A stretch of DNA of 20,971 nucleotides from a virus: the IMG/VR virus record IMGVR_UViG_3300025889_001149, positions 1 through 20,971 of that record, one strand, 5' to 3'. Under the pieces are notes generated by a model. The model ran no database searches, was not told the origin of the DNA, and worked only from the letters and a program-made list of their open reading frames with translations. The position numbers were made by a program, and so were the translations under genes. Position 1 is the first letter of the stretch. Every line of letters begins with the position of its first letter. Shown one piece after another: positions 1,731-20,438 of this stretch.

Positions 1731-2822
1731 TTAAGCAACGTTGCCTAAATCAGCAAAAATAGCTGAAGCAGTTTGCATTAAGTTAACATCTTCGTAGCAC
1801 TCAATACGTGCAGTAACCATATTTTGTTGGAAGTTACTTGCATTCTCATAAGAGAACTCAATAGCTAAACCTTCAACTTCAACACGCTCACAATAGTTGT
1901 TATCCAAGATTAATACCTTGTCATCAGCTACCCAAGAAGCAGCGATTACAGGTACACCCCAAATAGTGATTCCACCATTAGGATTTACGATAACAGAACC
2001 TGAACCAGCATAGTAACCATTGCTGATTGTTTCTTTTAATAAACGACCCATTTGAGTAGGACTTACAACTGCAAAAGAAGCAACATAGTTAGCACTCTTT
2101 TGGTTTCCGATATAATCAACTAATTGTTTTAAGTCAATTGTTTCGGCAGTTGTTGTAGAACCAGTTGCAGCAGTAGATACTGTTGTATAGAAAGCACTGT
2201 TCTCTGCTTTGTAGAAATCTCTAGTTAACATTCTTGGTAAAGTTGTACTTAAGAATGGTAAAGATTTTGCCATTTGCTTTGAGAAAGTAGAGAAACCAGC
2301 GATGTAATCGTTTACAACTTTAACTTCGCTTAATGCGTAGCTGTTTTGTCCTTTATCAGAACCTTCAGTTTGAGCAGCGATGTTGTTAGTTGTTGCAGTT
2401 TCCTTGTAGAAAACATATAAACCACTTGCACTACGTACAGTTGGAATTAAATCACGGAAGTTAACCGCTTGGCTTGGTAAGATAGCAGCATTAGGTGCGT
2501 AACTAGCTTGAGCATCTCCTGTTAAAGAACCTGACAAAGTCATAGTCTTAACATCGGATAAATCTAAACGGAATTTACCGCCAGACTTCATTTCTTTTTC
2601 CATTGCATCCATTTTGCCGTCAAGTTTTTCCATAATCACTTCATCCATAAACTTAACTTCACGCTTTGCAGCTTTCTTTTGAGCAACTAATTGTGCGTCA
2701 ATTTGCTTTTGCATTTCATCTTTTACAACACTGATTTCAGCTTTTACTGAATCAATTTGAGCAGAAATGTCGGATTTGATTCCTTTTACATTCTCTGCCA
2801 TTTCATTAATTAAATTTTCCAT
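1731..2822 (-). CDS. Major capsid protein (HK97 fold)
   Basis: The 363-residue protein has the two-part layout of HK97-type capsid precursors (PF05065). Residues 1 to about 85 are a charged, Lys/Glu-rich predicted coiled coil, the scaffold-like delta domain normally cut off by the prohead protease. The shell domain follows from about residue 90 and includes NFRDLIPTVRSASGLYVFY near 120-140, SYALSEVKVVNDYIAGFSTFSKQM near 160-185 and the C-terminal ITIWGVPVIAASWVADDKVLILDN. It forms the icosahedral shell. It lies directly downstream of the protease (2-base gap) and is followed by a strong terminator, which would raise capsid message relative to the connector genes. Confidence 0.93.
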   Translation of the reverse strand: MENLINEMAENVKGIKSDISAQIDSVKAEISVVKDEMQKQIDAQLVAQKKAAKREVKFMDEVIMEKLDGKMDAMEKEMKSGGKFRLDLSDVKTMTLSGSLTGDAQASYAPNAAILPSQAVNFRDLIPTVRSASGLYVFYKETATTNNIAAQTEGSDKGQNSYALSEVKVVNDYIAGFSTFSKQMAKSLPFLSTTLPRMLTRDFYKAENSAFYTTVSTAATGSTTTAETIDLKQLVDYIGNQKSANYVASFAVVSPTQMGRLLKETISNGYYAGSGSVIVNPNGGITIWGVPVIAASWVADDKVLILDNNYCERVEVEGLAIEFSYENASNFQQNMVTARIECYEDVNLMQTASAIFADLGNVA

Positions 2823-2824
2823 TT

Positions 2825-3583
2825 TTACTTTTTAAATAAGTTATTAAATTGTGCTATTGCTTTAAGGACTTTTTCTTCTTCATCATTTTTCACATCTTCG
2901 TTTGTCGGCTGCGGTGCTTCTGCGGTCGCAGTGATTTCTTTCACGATTTCAATTTCTAATAATTCAGATTGAATCCTTTTTATTTCTATCTCCATTAAAG
3001 CAAAGGTTTCGTCTGTGAAACGACCACCTTTAAATGCTTTAAGAAGTTTCTCTAGCCTTGTTGCTAATTGTTCTTTCTTTACTTCACTTTTAACTGAAAT
3101 AGTTGGTGTTTCAGGGTTTGCTGCCCATAATACCGCACTTCCTTCATAAAGTTTAAGTTCGGTAATGGTTCTAACACCATCTTTTCCTACGCTTGAATTT
3201 ATTGTAGTAAATCCAATTGAGTGTTGGTTGATTAAACCAGCATCATACATTTTTAAAATATCTTCTCCTGTTTCAGTCATTACAATTGGAGTGATAGCAA
3301 TAAGCATATCGCCTTCAACGTAAAGTTGTTCAGGTTTACCAATAACGGCTTCCATTTCAGCACAATGGTCAACTAAAGACCATATTAAGTTTTTACCTGC
3401 TGGACCACGCTCTTTTAACGTTTTAGTAAATGCTTCAGGAACGATAATATCGTTGTCTAAATCAACGTTTCCAGTTCTTGCCCATACGGCTTTTACTCTG
3501 CGTTGCTCGGTATCAACATCCATTACTTCGTAACCAATGTCTTGCTTTTCAACAACAACATCTTTATTTGTGTATGTTTTCAT
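2825..3583 (-). CDS. Prohead maturation protease (peptidase U35/S78)
   Basis: The 252-residue protein matches the HK97 gp4-type serine protease family. Visible landmarks are VKAVWARTGNVDLDNDII (31-48, the strand and turn before the active site), His73 in LVDHC, and His121-Ser122 in NQHSIGF, the expected nucleophile motif, followed by ITELKLYEGSAVLWAANP (140-157). A Lys/Glu-rich helical C-terminal tail (from about 165) is likely removed in assembly or acts as a scaffold. It should cleave the capsid delta domain and itself inside the prohead. It sits between the MuF-like gene and the capsid gene, as usual. Confidence 0.92.
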   Translation of the reverse strand: MKTYTNKDVVVEKQDIGYEVMDVDTEQRRVKAVWARTGNVDLDNDIIVPEAFTKTLKERGPAGKNLIWSLVDHCAEMEAVIGKPEQLYVEGDMLIAITPIVMTETGEDILKMYDAGLINQHSIGFTTINSSVGKDGVRTITELKLYEGSAVLWAANPETPTISVKSEVKKEQLATRLEKLLKAFKGGRFTDETFALMEIEIKRIQSELLEIEIVKEITATAEAPQPTNEDVKNDEEEKVLKAIAQFNNLFKK

Positions 3584-8898: not shown

Positions 8899-9372
8899 TT
8901 AATTTTTTAAGCATAATGATGAAATATGCTGAAATGATAAATTATACATTTCTGCTATTTCTTTTAATTTTTTGCCACCTTTTCTTAAAGCTAATATTTC
9001 TTCTTTTTGATAATCTTTTATTTTAGCATTAGGGTTTAATTCACCTTTATTTTTAGCTAATCCCATATTTGTTGCATGAATCATATTTTCACTATGTGTA
9101 ACCCATTCTAAATTAGATATATGATTATTTTTTTTATTTCCATCAATATGATTTACACACCTTTTATTTAAAGGATTTGGTATATAATATTGAGCGACCA
9201 ATCTATGTACTTTTCTGCCAAAATACTTTTTACCAAAATAAAAATTTAAAACCATATAACCATCTTTATCTATTTGGTTTTTCATTTTCTTAAGTCCATT
9301 GTTGGTTAATTTATATATATCACCATATTCGGTTATTTTATATAAACCATCAAATTCTAATACATCTTTCAT
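8899..9372 (-). CDS. Free-standing HNH homing endonuclease (NUMOD4/HNH_3)
   Basis: The 157-residue protein has an N-terminal NUMOD4-like part (FDGLYKITEYGDIY, 7-20), the HNH_3 core (VHRLVA 55-60, VNHIDGNK 73-80, NLEW 87-90) and a C-terminal helix-turn-helix (about 119-157: KIKDYQKEEILALRKGG then IAEMYNLSFQHIS) of the type that binds DNA in such enzymes. It would nick or cut intron-less or variant alleles and spread itself. It is inserted between NinG and a small basic gene, with an ATGA overlap to NinG. It differs from the other two HNH genes here in its C-terminal module. Confidence 0.88.
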   Translation of the reverse strand: MKDVLEFDGLYKITEYGDIYKLTNNGLKKMKNQIDKDGYMVLNFYFGKKYFGRKVHRLVAQYYIPNPLNKRCVNHIDGNKKNNHISNLEWVTHSENMIHATNMGLAKNKGELNPNAKIKDYQKEEILALRKGGKKLKEIAEMYNLSFQHISSLCLKN

Positions 9373-10664: not shown

Positions 10665-11399
10665 TTATTTGTTTAAATTGTTAAAATAAATCATTAATGA
10701 ATATTTTTTAGCTAATATTTTCATTTGGTCATCTGTTATAACCACTTCGCTAGGTTTGGTCGCTTTGCCTAATATAGCAATCCTAACCTTTTCTTTTATC
10801 CTATCGGCTTCTTCTTTTGTCATTGTAATTAGTTTACGTTTCCACAAATAGTCAAAGATTGTATGATTAATTAATTGCCAATCCTTTTTTGATTTACCCC
10901 ACCAATCAATTTCATCCTTAATGGCTTGTTCTTCATTAATAATAAATTTAGGCACATCAGATTCACTTTTAGGTTCTATCTTTTTTCTAACTTCAACGGC
11001 AATCTTTTTATAAGCTGACATTACTTCGCCAATCAATCTTGGATTAAAAATTATATGCTTATCAACGGCTAATCTATCTGCTGCCATCATTTCAAAGGCG
11101 GTTTTTAATTCCTTTAATCTAAAGTTTCCATAGTTGTCAATTACAAAGTCAACTATAAATTCAAAATCCTTTAAATCAGGTGTTTGTGTTCCGCTTAATT
11201 GTAAACAAGATTTAAGCACTTCTTTTACTTCAATTCTTGAACATTGACATATACCCATAGTTTGAATGGCATCGTATATTTTTAGTTCAAACTTATCCGT
11301 TAGTTTATAAGCTATTTCGTTTGATGGCTTCTCGTTCAGCGTAAGAGAGTTGTTGATTTTGATTAATTCGTTTTGCATTTGGGTTATAATTTTTGTCAA
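10665..11399 (-). CDS. Unrecognised replication-module protein (244 aa)
   Basis: The 244-residue protein has no recognised domain. It is helical, with IYDAIQTMGICQCSR near 41-55, FEFIVDFVIDNYGNFRLKELKTAFEMMAADRL near 79-110 and VVITDDQMKILAKKYSLMIYF near 219-239. The part reading YGNFRLKELKTAFEM is of the kind seen in phage proteins next to initiator or helicase-loader genes. Its start overlaps the initiator gene by 95 bases; Met8 (11378) would shorten this only slightly. It may be a helicase loader or an initiator partner, judged by position alone. Confidence 0.7.
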   Translation of the reverse strand: MTKIITQMQNELIKINNSLTLNEKPSNEIAYKLTDKFELKIYDAIQTMGICQCSRIEVKEVLKSCLQLSGTQTPDLKDFEFIVDFVIDNYGNFRLKELKTAFEMMAADRLAVDKHIIFNPRLIGEVMSAYKKIAVEVRKKIEPKSESDVPKFIINEEQAIKDEIDWWGKSKKDWQLINHTIFDYLWKRKLITMTKEEADRIKEKVRIAILGKATKPSEVVITDDQMKILAKKYSLMIYFNNLNK

Positions 11400-12069
11400 T
11401 AAATTTTCCTTCCGTTAAGTCTCTAGCCATCCAGTTCTTTGCAGTAGCAATCCAATCCTTCTTTTTTTCGCCTTTAGAATCAGACCAATTTTTAATTACT
11501 TCAAAATAATAATTGAAGTTAGCAACTTCGTATTGAGTTCCAATAAAACATTGCTCAAATTTTTCTATGGTATTAACTTCACTATCTACAAAAAGTGTAG
11601 CGCTACTAACTTTCTTTTTATTTACTTTATTTTCCTTTTCTTTACTTTCCTTTACTTTGTTATTTTCTGTTATAACGTTGTTATCATTTGTTATAACATT
11701 TTTATTTTTCCATCTATTTTCCATACCTTTTTTACCAGCAAAAGATTTTAATTTTCTTTTTTCATCTTGTAATTCCTTATTGTATAAAACCCTTTCACTC
11801 CAATAAAATTCATTATCAGTAACAAATAAACCTATTTCAATACAACTGTTATAAAATGCGGTTAACTTTGTTATATCAATGTTAAGTTGATAGCAAATCC
11901 CACTAAATAATTTACATTTTAATTTTGAATCTTGACTTTGGTGCATTAATTCAATAAAATACCAATAAAGTCCATAACCTTCCATTCCATAAATTGAAAG
12001 TAAATACAAAATTTTTTCATCATTAGCAGCATTAAAATCGTGCTGAAAATAATATGATTTGTTGTGCAT
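11305..12069 (-). CDS. Replication initiator-like protein (Lin1244/DUF4373 N-domain)
   Basis: The 254-residue protein begins with YYFQHDFNAANDEKILYLLSIYGMEGYGLYWYFIELM (6-42), the signature of the Lin1244/Lin1753-like (DUF4373) winged-helix domain found in phage and plasmid initiators. SFAGKKGMENRWKNK (109-123) closes the conserved part. A Lys/Asn/Glu-rich linker (about 121-154) follows, then a C-terminal domain with YYFEVIKNWSDSKGEKKKDWIATAKNWMARDL (187-218), as in DnaD-like phage replication proteins. The linker DNA carries phased repeats that look like an origin. It is the first gene after a promoter and a structured leader, so it probably heads the replication operon. Confidence 0.82.
   Translation of the reverse strand: MHNKSYYFQHDFNAANDEKILYLLSIYGMEGYGLYWYFIELMHQSQDSKLKCKLFSGICYQLNIDITKLTAFYNSCIEIGLFVTDNEFYWSERVLYNKELQDEKRKLKSFAGKKGMENRWKNKNVITNDNNVITENNKVKESKEKENKVNKKKVSSATLFVDSEVNTIEKFEQCFIGTQYEVANFNYYFEVIKNWSDSKGEKKKDWIATAKNWMARDLTEGKFIDKNYNPNAKRINQNQQLSYAEREAIKRNSL
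11611..11694. other. Candidate replication origin inside initiator gene (phased repeats plus purine tract)
   Basis: On the minus strand ATAACA occurs at 11694-11689, 11684-11679, 11673-11668 and 11663-11658, at steps of 10, 11 and 10 bp. The first and third lie within the 8-bp palindrome GTTATAAC, 21 bp apart. Directly downstream, plus-strand bases 11611-11657 contain no G: 47 nt of T/C with a few A, including three TTTACTTT words. This is the lambda ori layout (repeats followed by an A+T-rich purine/pyrimidine tract inside the initiator gene). That it works as an origin is inference. Confidence 0.45.
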
Positions 12070-13992: not shown

Positions 13993-14334
13993 TTATAAAA
14001 TTCTTTTTATTTCGTTTAATTCATCCTTTAAATCCGTATCGTAATGTAAACTCAACGTATTTTGGATGGTTTGCAAGGAATGAATAACTGTGGTGTGGTC
14101 TCTGCCTACAATATCCCCAATGGTCTTAAGTTTTAGCCTTGTATTGTTTTTAATAAGGTAAAGCGATATAAACCTTGCTTTTACGTTGTTTCTCTTACGG
14201 CTTTTGCCCTTGATGTCCTTTATTTCCATTTGGTAATAATCAGCCACCTTTTTGATAATGCCTTCAGCGTAATTAATCATTTCCTTCGTTGTTTGCTTGT
14301 TCTCCTTTTGGCTTGGTAGTGTCCAATAATTCAT
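13993..14334 (-). CDS. Orphan DnaA domain IV (DNA-binding domain) protein
   Basis: The 113-residue protein matches the DnaA C-terminal domain (PF08299): INYAEGIIKKVADYYQMEIKDIKGKSRKRNNVKARFISLYLI (20-61), KLKTIGDIVGRDHTTVIHSLQTI (68-90) with the GRDHTTV signature that contacts the DnaA box. The AAA+ ATPase part is absent. It may bind DnaA boxes in host or phage DNA, as an initiator accessory or a decoy. Met19 (14280) is an equally good start: it would leave an 8-base overlap with the upstream gene instead of 62. Domain identity is clear; the biological role is open. Confidence 0.85.
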   Translation of the reverse strand: MNYWTLPSQKENKQTTKEMINYAEGIIKKVADYYQMEIKDIKGKSRKRNNVKARFISLYLIKNNTRLKLKTIGDIVGRDHTTVIHSLQTIQNTLSLHYDTDLKDELNEIKRIL

Positions 14335-14757: not shown

Positions 14758-15222
14758 TTAAACGTAAATTAATGATGTTTTATTAGGACTAGAACCATTT
14801 AAATAATTTATTAATGTTGAATATTTAAATCCTAAAATTAATGAAGCATCTTTTGCATTTTCATAAAACACACCTGTTTTTAAATCAAGTATTATTTTGC
14901 CAAAATTTGATGGTTTTCTTAACCCAATTTTATATGCGTGTAAATTATTTTCACTTGATGTTGACCATTCTAAATTTTCTACTCTATTATCAGTTTTAAT
15001 GCCGTTTATATGATTTACATTTTTTTTGTTTTGGCTATTATTAATAAATGCTTCAGCAACCAATCTATGTATTTTATATGTTTTAATTTTATTTTTATTA
15101 CATAAACTAACTCTATAATAACCATTACTTGATAAAGATGGTTTTAATTCTTTATTTTTTTTATTATTTATAACTGTACCATCTTTGGTAACGTTATAAT
15201 TCGGATAATTTTTAATTTGCAT
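14758..15222 (-). CDS. HNH homing endonuclease with C-terminal DNA-binding module (paralogue 1)
   Basis: The 154-residue protein has the N-terminal [13 protein letters not shown] strand pair (5-17), the HNH core (IHRLVAEAF 51-59, VNHINGIK 69-76, NLEW 83-86) and a C-terminal NUMOD1-like part ([25 protein letters not shown], 119-143). It is a close paralogue of the enzyme at 19974-20438, including the shared ending PNKTxLIY. The gene is visibly richer in A+T than its neighbours, consistent with horizontal spread. It is inserted between the ribbon-helix-helix gene and the 99-residue gene. Confidence 0.88.
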
Positions 15223-15932: not shown

Positions 15933-16187
15933 TTAGTAATGTTCTAATCCGTAAATATCTAAAACTAAATCAGCTGGGAAAAAATTAGATTTTAATCCAA
16001 TTGTTAAATCGCAAGAATCATAAATTAATTCTTTTTTAATTAAATTCCCTATAATACCTTTTTCTGATGCAGTTAATTTAGAATCATAACAAACGTTGTT
16101 ATTTATATTGTAAGCACCTACAATTGATTCTAACATTGCAAATTCTAATTCAGTTAAATTTAATTTTAAATCGTTGATTGTTTTCAT
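15933..16187 (-). CDS. Unrecognised first gene of early operon (84 aa)
   Basis: I start it at ATG 16187 (MKTINDLKLNLTELEFAMLE); the frame is open to 16220, but only from a TTG that is part of the promoter box. The protein is mixed helix/strand, with FAMLESIVGAYN, TASEKGIIGNLIKKELIYD and an end LDIYGLEHY. The pattern LT-x-x-E-x-x-x-L ... G-x-x-x-x-L-x-KKGLI-like resembles a small winged helix, but is not enough to assign. It is the first gene after the regulatory gap. Confidence 0.6.
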   Translation of the reverse strand: MKTINDLKLNLTELEFAMLESIVGAYNINNNVCYDSKLTASEKGIIGNLIKKELIYDSCDLTIGLKSNFFPADLVLDIYGLEHY

Positions 16188-16492
16188 AACTAATGGTTTT
16201 TTGTTTGTTTGATAAATCAAAGATACATAATAATTACAATACTAACCAAAAATTATTTAAATTATTATTGTTAAAATAGTGTTAAAATGCTATGTATTTG
16301 TAAATCAAAGAGTTATGCAAAAAGTTCACAAATAGAGAACTTTATTTCTAATTTGCATGAAATTTCCTAAAAATCTATGCAAAATTGAAGTTATTGGAAA
16401 TAGTAAAGCCATAACTTGTCTTATATGGTACAAAAGCACATCAAAAAGTGCATTTTATGATACATTACGCATATTTACGAATGCAAACGGAT
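16188..16492. promoter_or_regulatory. Gene-free regulatory gap with dyad and ATGCAAA repeats
   Basis: No convincing gene lies in this A+T-rich stretch. It contains a perfect 7-bp dyad AAAGTTC / GAACTTT with 9 bases between the arms (16321-16343). It also holds four ATGCAAA words: direct at 16315-16321, 16377-16383 and 16481-16487, inverted at 16352-16358. A weaker stem, GCCATA/TATGGT, spans about 16408-16429. With a promoter at its left end and terminators at its right, this is the likely control region of the early genes and may hold operators or replication iterons. Confidence 0.55.
16218..16249 (-). promoter_or_regulatory. Early operon promoter (TTG-N21-TATCTTTG)
   Basis: TATCTTTG at 16225-16218 matches TAnnTTTG, with a TTG in a TTTTTGG context 21 bases upstream (16249-16247). 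Transcription should begin near 16211, giving a leader of about 24 bases rich in A before the ATG at 16187. This also argues against the longer reading of the first gene. Confidence 0.6.
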
Positions 16493-16526
16493 AAAAAAAA
16501 CCCCTCAACGTAGAAACGTAAGGGGG
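16493..16526 (-). terminator. Terminator 2 of tandem pair
   Basis: On the minus strand CCCCCTTACGT-TTCT-ACGTTGAGGGG folds into a stem (CCCCT/AGGGG arms plus inner ACGT/ACGT, with a small internal loop) followed by eight Ts. It backs up the terminator at 16573-16595. Confidence 0.8.
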
Positions 16527-16566
16527 ATAAAACCATTTGTCTATAAAACTATGCGTACAAATATAT

Positions 16567-16595
16567 AAAAAAAACCCAGCTTTTTACACTGGGTT
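16567..16595 (-). terminator. Terminator 1 of tandem pair, end of lysis/MPE operon
   Basis: On the minus strand AACCCAG, a 9-nt loop and CTGGGTT form a perfect 7-bp stem running into a long T tract. It lies 29 bases after the stop of the mini-peptidase gene and should end transcripts from the lysis operon. Confidence 0.88.
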
Positions 16596-16623
16596 AAACC
16601 AAACTATGAGAAAACCAAACAAC

Positions 16624-16893
16624 CTACTTTGACCCATCCTGTAAAGGTTCATCATTTGTGTCATCCACTCTACGATAACCCTCCTTCCATAAGATGTTAG
16701 TCAAAGTTACACTTTTGCGTATAATCGCTTTTTCATCATCCGTTGGGTTCAACAAGTGCAATACTTCGTGCAATAGAATTTCAAGGTGTTTCTTGCCCTT
16801 TAAACGTGGGTCTATATAAACATTACCATCACTTTCGGCAATGCCGTGTGCTTGTTCCCTGCCTAATTTCTTATATATAATTTTAATTCTCAT
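16624..16893 (-). CDS. Mini zincin: HExxH metallopeptidase-like protein
   Basis: The 89-residue protein contains H42-E43-V-L-H46 in LLHEVLHLLNP, the zinc-binding and catalytic motif of zincins, preceded by NVYIDPRLKGKKHLEI, which provides the edge strand and helix usual before it. A third ligand could be Asp52/Asp53/Glu54 or lie in RKSVTLTNILWKEGYRR. Phages of this group often carry such short putative peptidases; the substrate is unknown. It closes the operon before the tandem terminators and overlaps the upstream gene by 11 bases. Confidence 0.72.
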   Translation of the reverse strand: MRIKIIYKKLGREQAHGIAESDGNVYIDPRLKGKKHLEILLHEVLHLLNPTDDEKAIIRKSVTLTNILWKEGYRRVDDTNDEPLQDGSK

Positions 16894-19973: not shown

Positions 19974-20438
19974 TTAAGCGTAAATTAATGTTGTTTTATT
20001 TGGGTATGTATTTGTTAAATATCCGTGTAAAGTTTTCATATTTACATTATAATATTTAGCTGCTTCAGTTACTGAATCATAAAAAATACCTGTTGCGGTA
20101 TCTAGCACAATTCTTGTTACACTTGGCTTTTTTAATCCTGTATCAAATGCGTGTTGTATATTTTGACTTGCAGTAACCCATTCAAGATTTTCAATCCTAT
20201 TATCGGTTTTTATTCCGTTAATATGATTAACCATTTTATAGTTATTCACATTATCAATATAAGCCTCTGCAACTAACCTATGTATTGTGTAGTTTTTATA
20301 TTTTAAATCTTTACATAATACAACTTGCATATATCCTCTTGAATTACTACAAGGAGTTAATTTTCTATTAAATCTTAAACTCCATACTTCGCCATCTTTT
20401 GTTATAGCGTAATTTGGATAATTAGGAATTGGCTTCAT
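19974..20438 (-). CDS. HNH homing endonuclease with C-terminal DNA-binding module (paralogue 2)
   Basis: The 154-residue protein matches the enzyme at 14758-15222 over its whole length: NYPNYAITKDGEVWSL (6-21), IHRLVAEAY (52-60), [12 protein letters not shown] (70-81), NLEW (84-87), then a NUMOD1-like end (FYDSVTEAAKYYNVNMKTLHGYL, 119-141) and PNKTTLIYA. It probably cuts alleles lacking the insertion. The C-terminal part differs most from its paralogue, which fits different target sites. It is inserted between a small TM protein and the 128-residue gene. Confidence 0.88.
   Translation of the reverse strand: MKPIPNYPNYAITKDGEVWSLRFNRKLTPCSNSRGYMQVVLCKDLKYKNYTIHRLVAEAYIDNVNNYKMVNHINGIKTDNRIENLEWVTASQNIQHAFDTGLKKPSVTRIVLDTATGIFYDSVTEAAKYYNVNMKTLHGYLTNTYPNKTTLIYA

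Follow-up and report, generated by a model that had tools for sequence, protein, structure and literature searches.

Does the run of short repeats in the middle of this phage's initiator gene, together with the purine-rich tract beside it, form the origin from which the phage replicates? The window, by which we mean the whole stretch of DNA analyzed, is an IMG/VR virus record of 20,971 bases. Its left part is a packaging and head block (assigned by eye from protein sequence), the middle is a replication block, and a lysozyme is encoded farther right. A preliminary description, made from sequence alone, had read the linker of the initiator gene as a lambda-ori-like arrangement. The features on which this reading turns are as follows.

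10665-11399 (-): downstream gene overlapping the initiator gene; phrog_26016, unknown function
11305-12069 (-): initiator gene, 254 aa; PF14297 Lin1244_N, E 6e-11; phrog_2562, E 4e-17
11308-11580 (-): C-terminal domain, swapped independently of the N-domain and repeats (identity matrix, DNA switch points)
11611-11658 (-): 5-bp tandem tract AAAG(T/G/A)n, purine-rich on the coding strand; putative unwinding element, and a recombination switch point observed in relatives
11658-11694 (-): iteron array, four ATAACA words at steps of 10, 11, and 10 bp (sequence and conservation)
11710-11739 (-): codes for the basic motif AGKKGMENRW, with which the long helix ends; follows the repeat class
11794-12051 (-): N-terminal winged-helix domain, the putative DNA-binding part (PF14297 match; AlphaFold2 pLDDT mostly above 90)
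11847-11885 (-): further, weaker group of (A/T)TAAC half-sites within the sequence that encodes the N-domain (sequence; family-wide lag-11 signal)

Outside this region, HNH homing endonuclease-like proteins are encoded at 8899-9372, 14758-15222, and 19974-20438 (-), a call that rests on the motif NHIDGxKxxNxxxNLEWVT, read by eye only.

The initiator N-domain scored 43.3 bits against PF14297 (cut-off 25), a model score that places the protein among the Lin1244_N phage replication initiators, and phrog_2562 is annotated "replication initiation protein." PF14297 was the sole Pfam domain found. PF04492 (Phage_rep_O), which lambda O itself matches, was not found in the initiator, and the Pfam search likewise gave no sequence match to PF06970 (RepA_N). 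In the AlphaFold2 model, the winged-helix domain is predicted with confidence and a long helix terminates in AGKKGMENRW. Residues 126 to 163 (pLDDT under 50), corresponding approximately to the part encoded by the array and tract, are disordered, and the C-domain is moderately confident. The N-domain fold resembles the RepA_N N-domains 4pql and 4pt7 (Z about 7, rmsd 2.3; for 4pql, Z 7.2 and rmsd 2.3 over 79 residues). Because unrelated winged helices score equally, this likeness is only suggestive. Lambda O was absent from the VIA-align list of structural matches to the N-domain, which is uninformative either way. The gene at 10665-11399, whose sole match was to phrog_26016, goes with the C-domain: its products are 52-69% identical where the C-domains are alike and about 28% identical in others. 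From its position only, it can be put forward as a candidate partner or helicase loader, and no more than that.

The four ATAACA words lie on the - (coding) strand at 11689-11694, 11679-11684, 11668-11673, and 11658-11663, two of them read as ATA-ACA and two as xAT-AAC-A, so that the spacing and the two codon phases given in the preliminary description held. ATAACA by itself is not enriched in the window (28 found vs. 27.6 expected), and none of 2000 first-order Markov copies of the window contained a four-word array at 9-12 bp steps. The placing of two words inside palindromes 21 bp apart was also correct as to position (GTTATAAC at 11669-11676 and 11690-11697), but the palindrome is not the conserved part. 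We rejected it as the conserved unit, since the ATAACA words persist where it changes: its second copy is GCTATAAC in loci L002 and L003 and differs in L014-L016, and the words are kept in all of these. An Rfam search found nothing.

The 47-nt stretch without C that had been noted next to the array is present, but such a stretch is ordinary. The longest C-free run on the coding strand of the window is 59 nt, and runs of 47 or more occurred in 252 of 300 Markov copies, by which we rejected the lack of C as a signal. The unusual feature is instead a 5-bp period, with an identity of 0.74 at lag 5 and 0.81 at lag 15. Among linkers from 73 clusters, 33 contained (AAAGK)≥3, all in the sense direction and at codons 122-158, and the 708,728 strand-bases of these loci contained no other such run, antisense or elsewhere; three perfect units in a row are missing from about half of the clusters. 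In the K/E-rich stretch, codon usage is biased toward the pentamer. Specifically, usage there compared to the rest of the genes was 0.61 vs. 0.20 for Ser AGT, 0.80 vs. 0.31 for Val GTA, and 0.75 vs. 0.32 for Gly GGA, and Lys before Val or Gly was AAA in 83 of 88 cases there and in 103 of 152 elsewhere. A pure (AAAGT)n would give TAA once per 15 bases; the tracts have G at that place (AAG GAA).

The repeats and the tract are constrained at the DNA level. For the 73 clusters, which are under 65% identical, we held the peptide fixed and redrew synonymous codons from each locus's own usage. Against this background, lag 11 peaked with a Z of 15.5 around codons 109-135 (~117), and lags 5, 10, 15, and 20 peaked around codons 125-155 (~133), with Z values of 19.9 at lag 5 and 16.7 at lag 10. 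No periodic signal was found past codon 173, where Z was near 0. An earlier version of the test with 56 clusters also gave periodicity above synonymous resampling. A further lag-11 peak (Z 6.7) fell at codons 45-75, within the folded domain, where the window carries its weaker half-site set. The motifs at codons 45-75 agreed with the class defined by the linker in 70 cases, compared to 34.6 when permuted (0/2000).

Relatives of the initiator are encoded by 25 viral loci and one bacterial contig (L027, the one match in a scan of genome contigs, binned as Sphingomonadaceae and possibly mis-binned). In relatives that share the N-domain type of the window, the array is unchanged or has one half-site more, and the residues between the words vary; the proposed check, that ATAACA spacing be kept despite linker divergence, was thus run on relatives and its prediction held. 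Among AGKxGM proteins gathered by N-domain similarity, 18 of 25 show perfect 10/11 alternation. Three of the seven exceptions (L064, L074, and L108; 125-130 aa) are stand-alone N-domain proteins that have no linker, a natural negative control in which no array was found. Lin1244_N proteins of 125-131 aa that stand alone, with neither linker nor tract, were seen in L050, L057, L058, L061, L064, L067, L071, L074, and others; they could conceivably be regulators or competitors of initiators.

An unbiased scan of IMG/VR for the array pattern returned 42 stretches with 43 arrays, nearly all in the sense direction in initiator-type genes. Some matches belong to DUF6291 (PF19808), and most of those share the AGKKGM segment. 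The DUF6291 proteins of L298, L306, L307, L319, and L322 have ATAACA arrays in the linker, and we infer, tentatively, that DUF6291 is a second N-domain family of initiators with in-gene origins. A scan for the bare (AAAGK)5 pattern gave at least 120 stretches, a sample whose contigs are partly redundant. Of these 120, 105 were sense in an ORF and about 95 encode PF14297 proteins, with a DnaB_2 C-domain in 18 of 51 tested. A Firmicutes-type set picked by N-domain had a three-unit AAAGD run in 6 of 12 clusters. Two loci, L275 (near 182-932) and L304 (near 2375-3125), have an initiator gene whose frame stays open only under a TGA=Gly reading, judged from the occurrence of TGA at conserved glycine positions; this points to a code 25 host. 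Both carry the same array and AAAGK tract.

The class of repeat goes along with the N-domain, and exchange of the C-domain is independent of both. The initiator of the window is 41% identical to that of L008 in the N-domain and 90% in the C-domain; against L013 these values are 30% and 91%, and against L015, which has the window's array, 80% and 22%. L008 and L013 carry other repeats in the same place, at 12-bp steps with GGGTGGC or at 11-bp steps with GCGAACGCA. In pairs that recombined recently, identity at the DNA level rises abruptly inside the pentamer tract, from about 60% to 100%; for L005 and L008 the rise holds from codon 140 on, and for L005 and L006 it runs in the opposite sense. 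Different repeats under like C-domains, with switch points in the tract, indicate that N-domain and array form one cassette, as in a RepA_N-type architecture in which N-domain and repeats are exchanged as a unit against the C-domain. The basic motif before the linker pairs with the repeat class as follows.

AGKxGM: ATAACA
xARxSAxxRW: GCAATG/GCGAACGCA
GKxG(A/N): GGGTGGC or its complement
AGKxSA: TTGAAC
AGRxGG: GAAGCA

These pairings predicted the class in 43 of 44 assignable cases (83 clusters, of which 55 were classed and 44 assignable), by rules that were drawn after seeing the data. In 19 fresh clusters there were 4 strict assignments, all in agreement, and 8 class-labelled clusters received no assignment. 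The class C and C' arrays look like one site in opposite orientations, which gives different peptides. Whether the basic motif is a specificity determinant or merely a marker of N-domain type, either may be the case.

Taken as an arrangement, the lambda-like layout is supported: central repeats within the gene, then an A+T-rich purine tract. Its function remains an inference. The preliminary description requires refinement in that the initiator is not of the lambda O family, the half-sites are spaced at 10.5-12 bp, the tract consists of a specific 5-bp repeat, and the N-domain coding region contains a further, weaker array. We consider it very probable that the array and tract are the phage's replication origin, with binding and origin activity inferred, and have similar confidence, again by inference from sequence, that the same two-part layout, with an array that differs by initiator head type, lies concealed within initiator coding regions in many other phages. 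The suggested skew analysis, run on the window, showed no GC-skew turning point at the initiator gene; the lack of one is expected if transcription-linked skew dominates, yet it gives the origin no support. The alternative origin site at 16188-16490 was examined and has no comparable array, and the region 16150-16650 contains only weak two-copy repeats and imperfect inverted repeats. The intergenic stretch of 400 bp at 16221-16623 has a positive AT skew, unlike nearly all the rest of the window, and a terminator-like hairpin at 16573-16595 (-); no iteron-like array was found in it. A DnaA-box origin, for which boxes should cluster, was rejected for the window: 27 TTATNCACA-like sites with one mismatch allowed were found vs. 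37 expected, none clustered at the array. A 113-aa protein encoded at 13993-14334 (-) consists of DnaA domain IV only (PF08299, E 3.5e-22), with no AAA+ part. It might occupy host DnaA boxes, though boxes are not enriched in the window.

Three other explanations can be weighed against an origin. The array could be an operator for autoregulation, acting in repression of the initiator operon or in copy control rather than as a replication start. Initiators often bind their own genes, and no data here place the replication start at the array. Against this, the array is ~375 bp into the coding region and shows no promoter-like excess, the adjoining 5-bp tract is left unexplained, and Tuc2009 and lambda have origins in this place; we regard the operator as very improbable. 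We give as little credence to the view that the DNA repeats are a by-product, arising in a disordered linker of low complexity from repetition in the protein or from slipped-strand expansion. The low pLDDT of residues 126-163 speaks for it, as do the repetitive linker peptides (NVITxxNNVITxxN, KVKES) and the reading frame, which is the same in all 28 unique ATAACA arrays. Nevertheless, periodicity is greater than under synonymous resampling, steps of 10 and 11 bp are not divisible by 3, the second array sits in the folded domain and matches the linker class, and class C and C' present apparently one site through different peptides.

The remaining alternative concerns only the tract, which might be chiefly a recombination hinge without a role in initiation, and under which the array may still be an origin. 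Recent recombinants do switch inside the tract. But a reason would be needed for its conservation in phages whose N- and C-domains are unrelated, Lactobacillus phages and those with the TGA=Gly reading among them, and the Tuc2009 pentamer differs in sequence and therefore could not serve as shared homology. We judge the hinge unlikely, if less so than the other two.

If the array and tract are an origin, the winged helix of the N-domain, possibly together with the basic segment AGKKGMxxRW, would bind the half-sites, whose steps of ~10.5 bp would thus line initiators up on one face of the helix. Bound initiators may then strain or position the adjoining A+T-rich (AAAGK)n tract, which would open and expose one strand bearing a fixed 5-nt repeat, and the C-domain and the partner encoded downstream are predicted to start helicase loading on that strand. 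With the site inside the gene, recombination would not part the DNA-binding domain from its target. In a bolder reading, toward which we are mildly skeptical, the (AAAGK)n tract would be a general single-strand element of phage origins, present in Bacteroidota, Firmicutes, and TGA=Gly phages and with one unit per half helical turn, the opened strand being read by the C-domain or helicase loader in the way that oriC uses DnaA-trios and the DnaD element; its sequence would vary by initiator family (AGGWT in Tuc2009), and it would double as the crossover point for swapping heads with sites.

An in-gene origin with its own initiator is of a kind already known from a few model phages and plasmids. 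Our search of the open literature found no published origin of the Lin1244_N family in Bacteroidota phages, and the phased half-site classes, second array, and 5-bp tract of this family are probably undescribed there; subscription papers were mostly outside the search, which is no proof. One rule, helically phased repeats after the N-domain and then a 5-bp tract, points to origins in many uncultured phages and, for five classes, connects the recognition motif with its target sequence. Direct tests become possible both of a single-strand unwinding code and of the swapping of heads with their sites, and marker-frequency, incompatibility, and origin-based resistance experiments could be designed for Bacteroidota phages.

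Among known systems, the organisers of the lactococcal P335 phages TP901-1 and Tuc2009 bind direct repeats in their own genes, which serve as ori (PMC8965321), and the Tuc2009 sequence record also notes an origin in Rep's own gene. In Tuc2009 Rep, which served as a positive control, four 11-bp repeats, CAACCAAATGN, precede a pentamer tract of AGGAT/AGGTT (lag 5 Z 5.6), an order like that of the window in other sequences. These organisers (Tuc2009 Rep2009 and TP901-1 ORF13) differ in their domains (PF06926; HTH_36 and DnaB_2). TP901-1 gave no clear signal, and of the three published in-gene phage origins examined, only Tuc2009 had a clear pentamer tract. At Bacillus subtilis oriC, the DnaA-trio and DnaD recognition element consist of short repeats beside initiator boxes that are read as single strands (PMC10201434). 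The (MCTTT)n strand of the tract has TnnT every 5 nt, like the DnaD recognition element core; oriC differs in its 3-nt period and its DnaA/DnaD system. This analogy is a lead that may or may not hold, a hypothesis and not evidence.

The closest parallels are lambda and the RepA_N plasmids. In lambda, the iterons lie in mid-O, and O can bind without the A+T-rich tract, which has purines on one strand and is needed for unwinding (PMC7466680, PMC5043065). With lambda and other lambdoid origins the window shares the central in-gene repeats, the A+T-rich, purine-asymmetric tract after them, and a next gene that overlaps the initiator gene. It differs from lambda in initiator family (PF14297 rather than PF04492), in having 6-bp words at 10-11 bp rather than 18-bp iterons at 20-24 bp steps, and in its 5-bp repeat, which is not clear in the lambda tract. 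In RepA_N plasmids, the winged-helix N-domain of pSK41 Rep binds boxes in the middle of its own gene, the central peptide being a dispensable linker, and pPR9 is a natural chimera in which N-domain and ori were exchanged and the C-domain kept (PMC5703833). The window resembles them in its repeats in the middle of the initiator gene and in the exchange of N-domain and site against the C-domain; it differs in lacking a PF06970 match, with a fold likeness of just Z about 7. The best reading, which we hold with high confidence while its function is inferred, is that of an in-gene origin working like lambda ori in O and the RepA_N plasmid ori.
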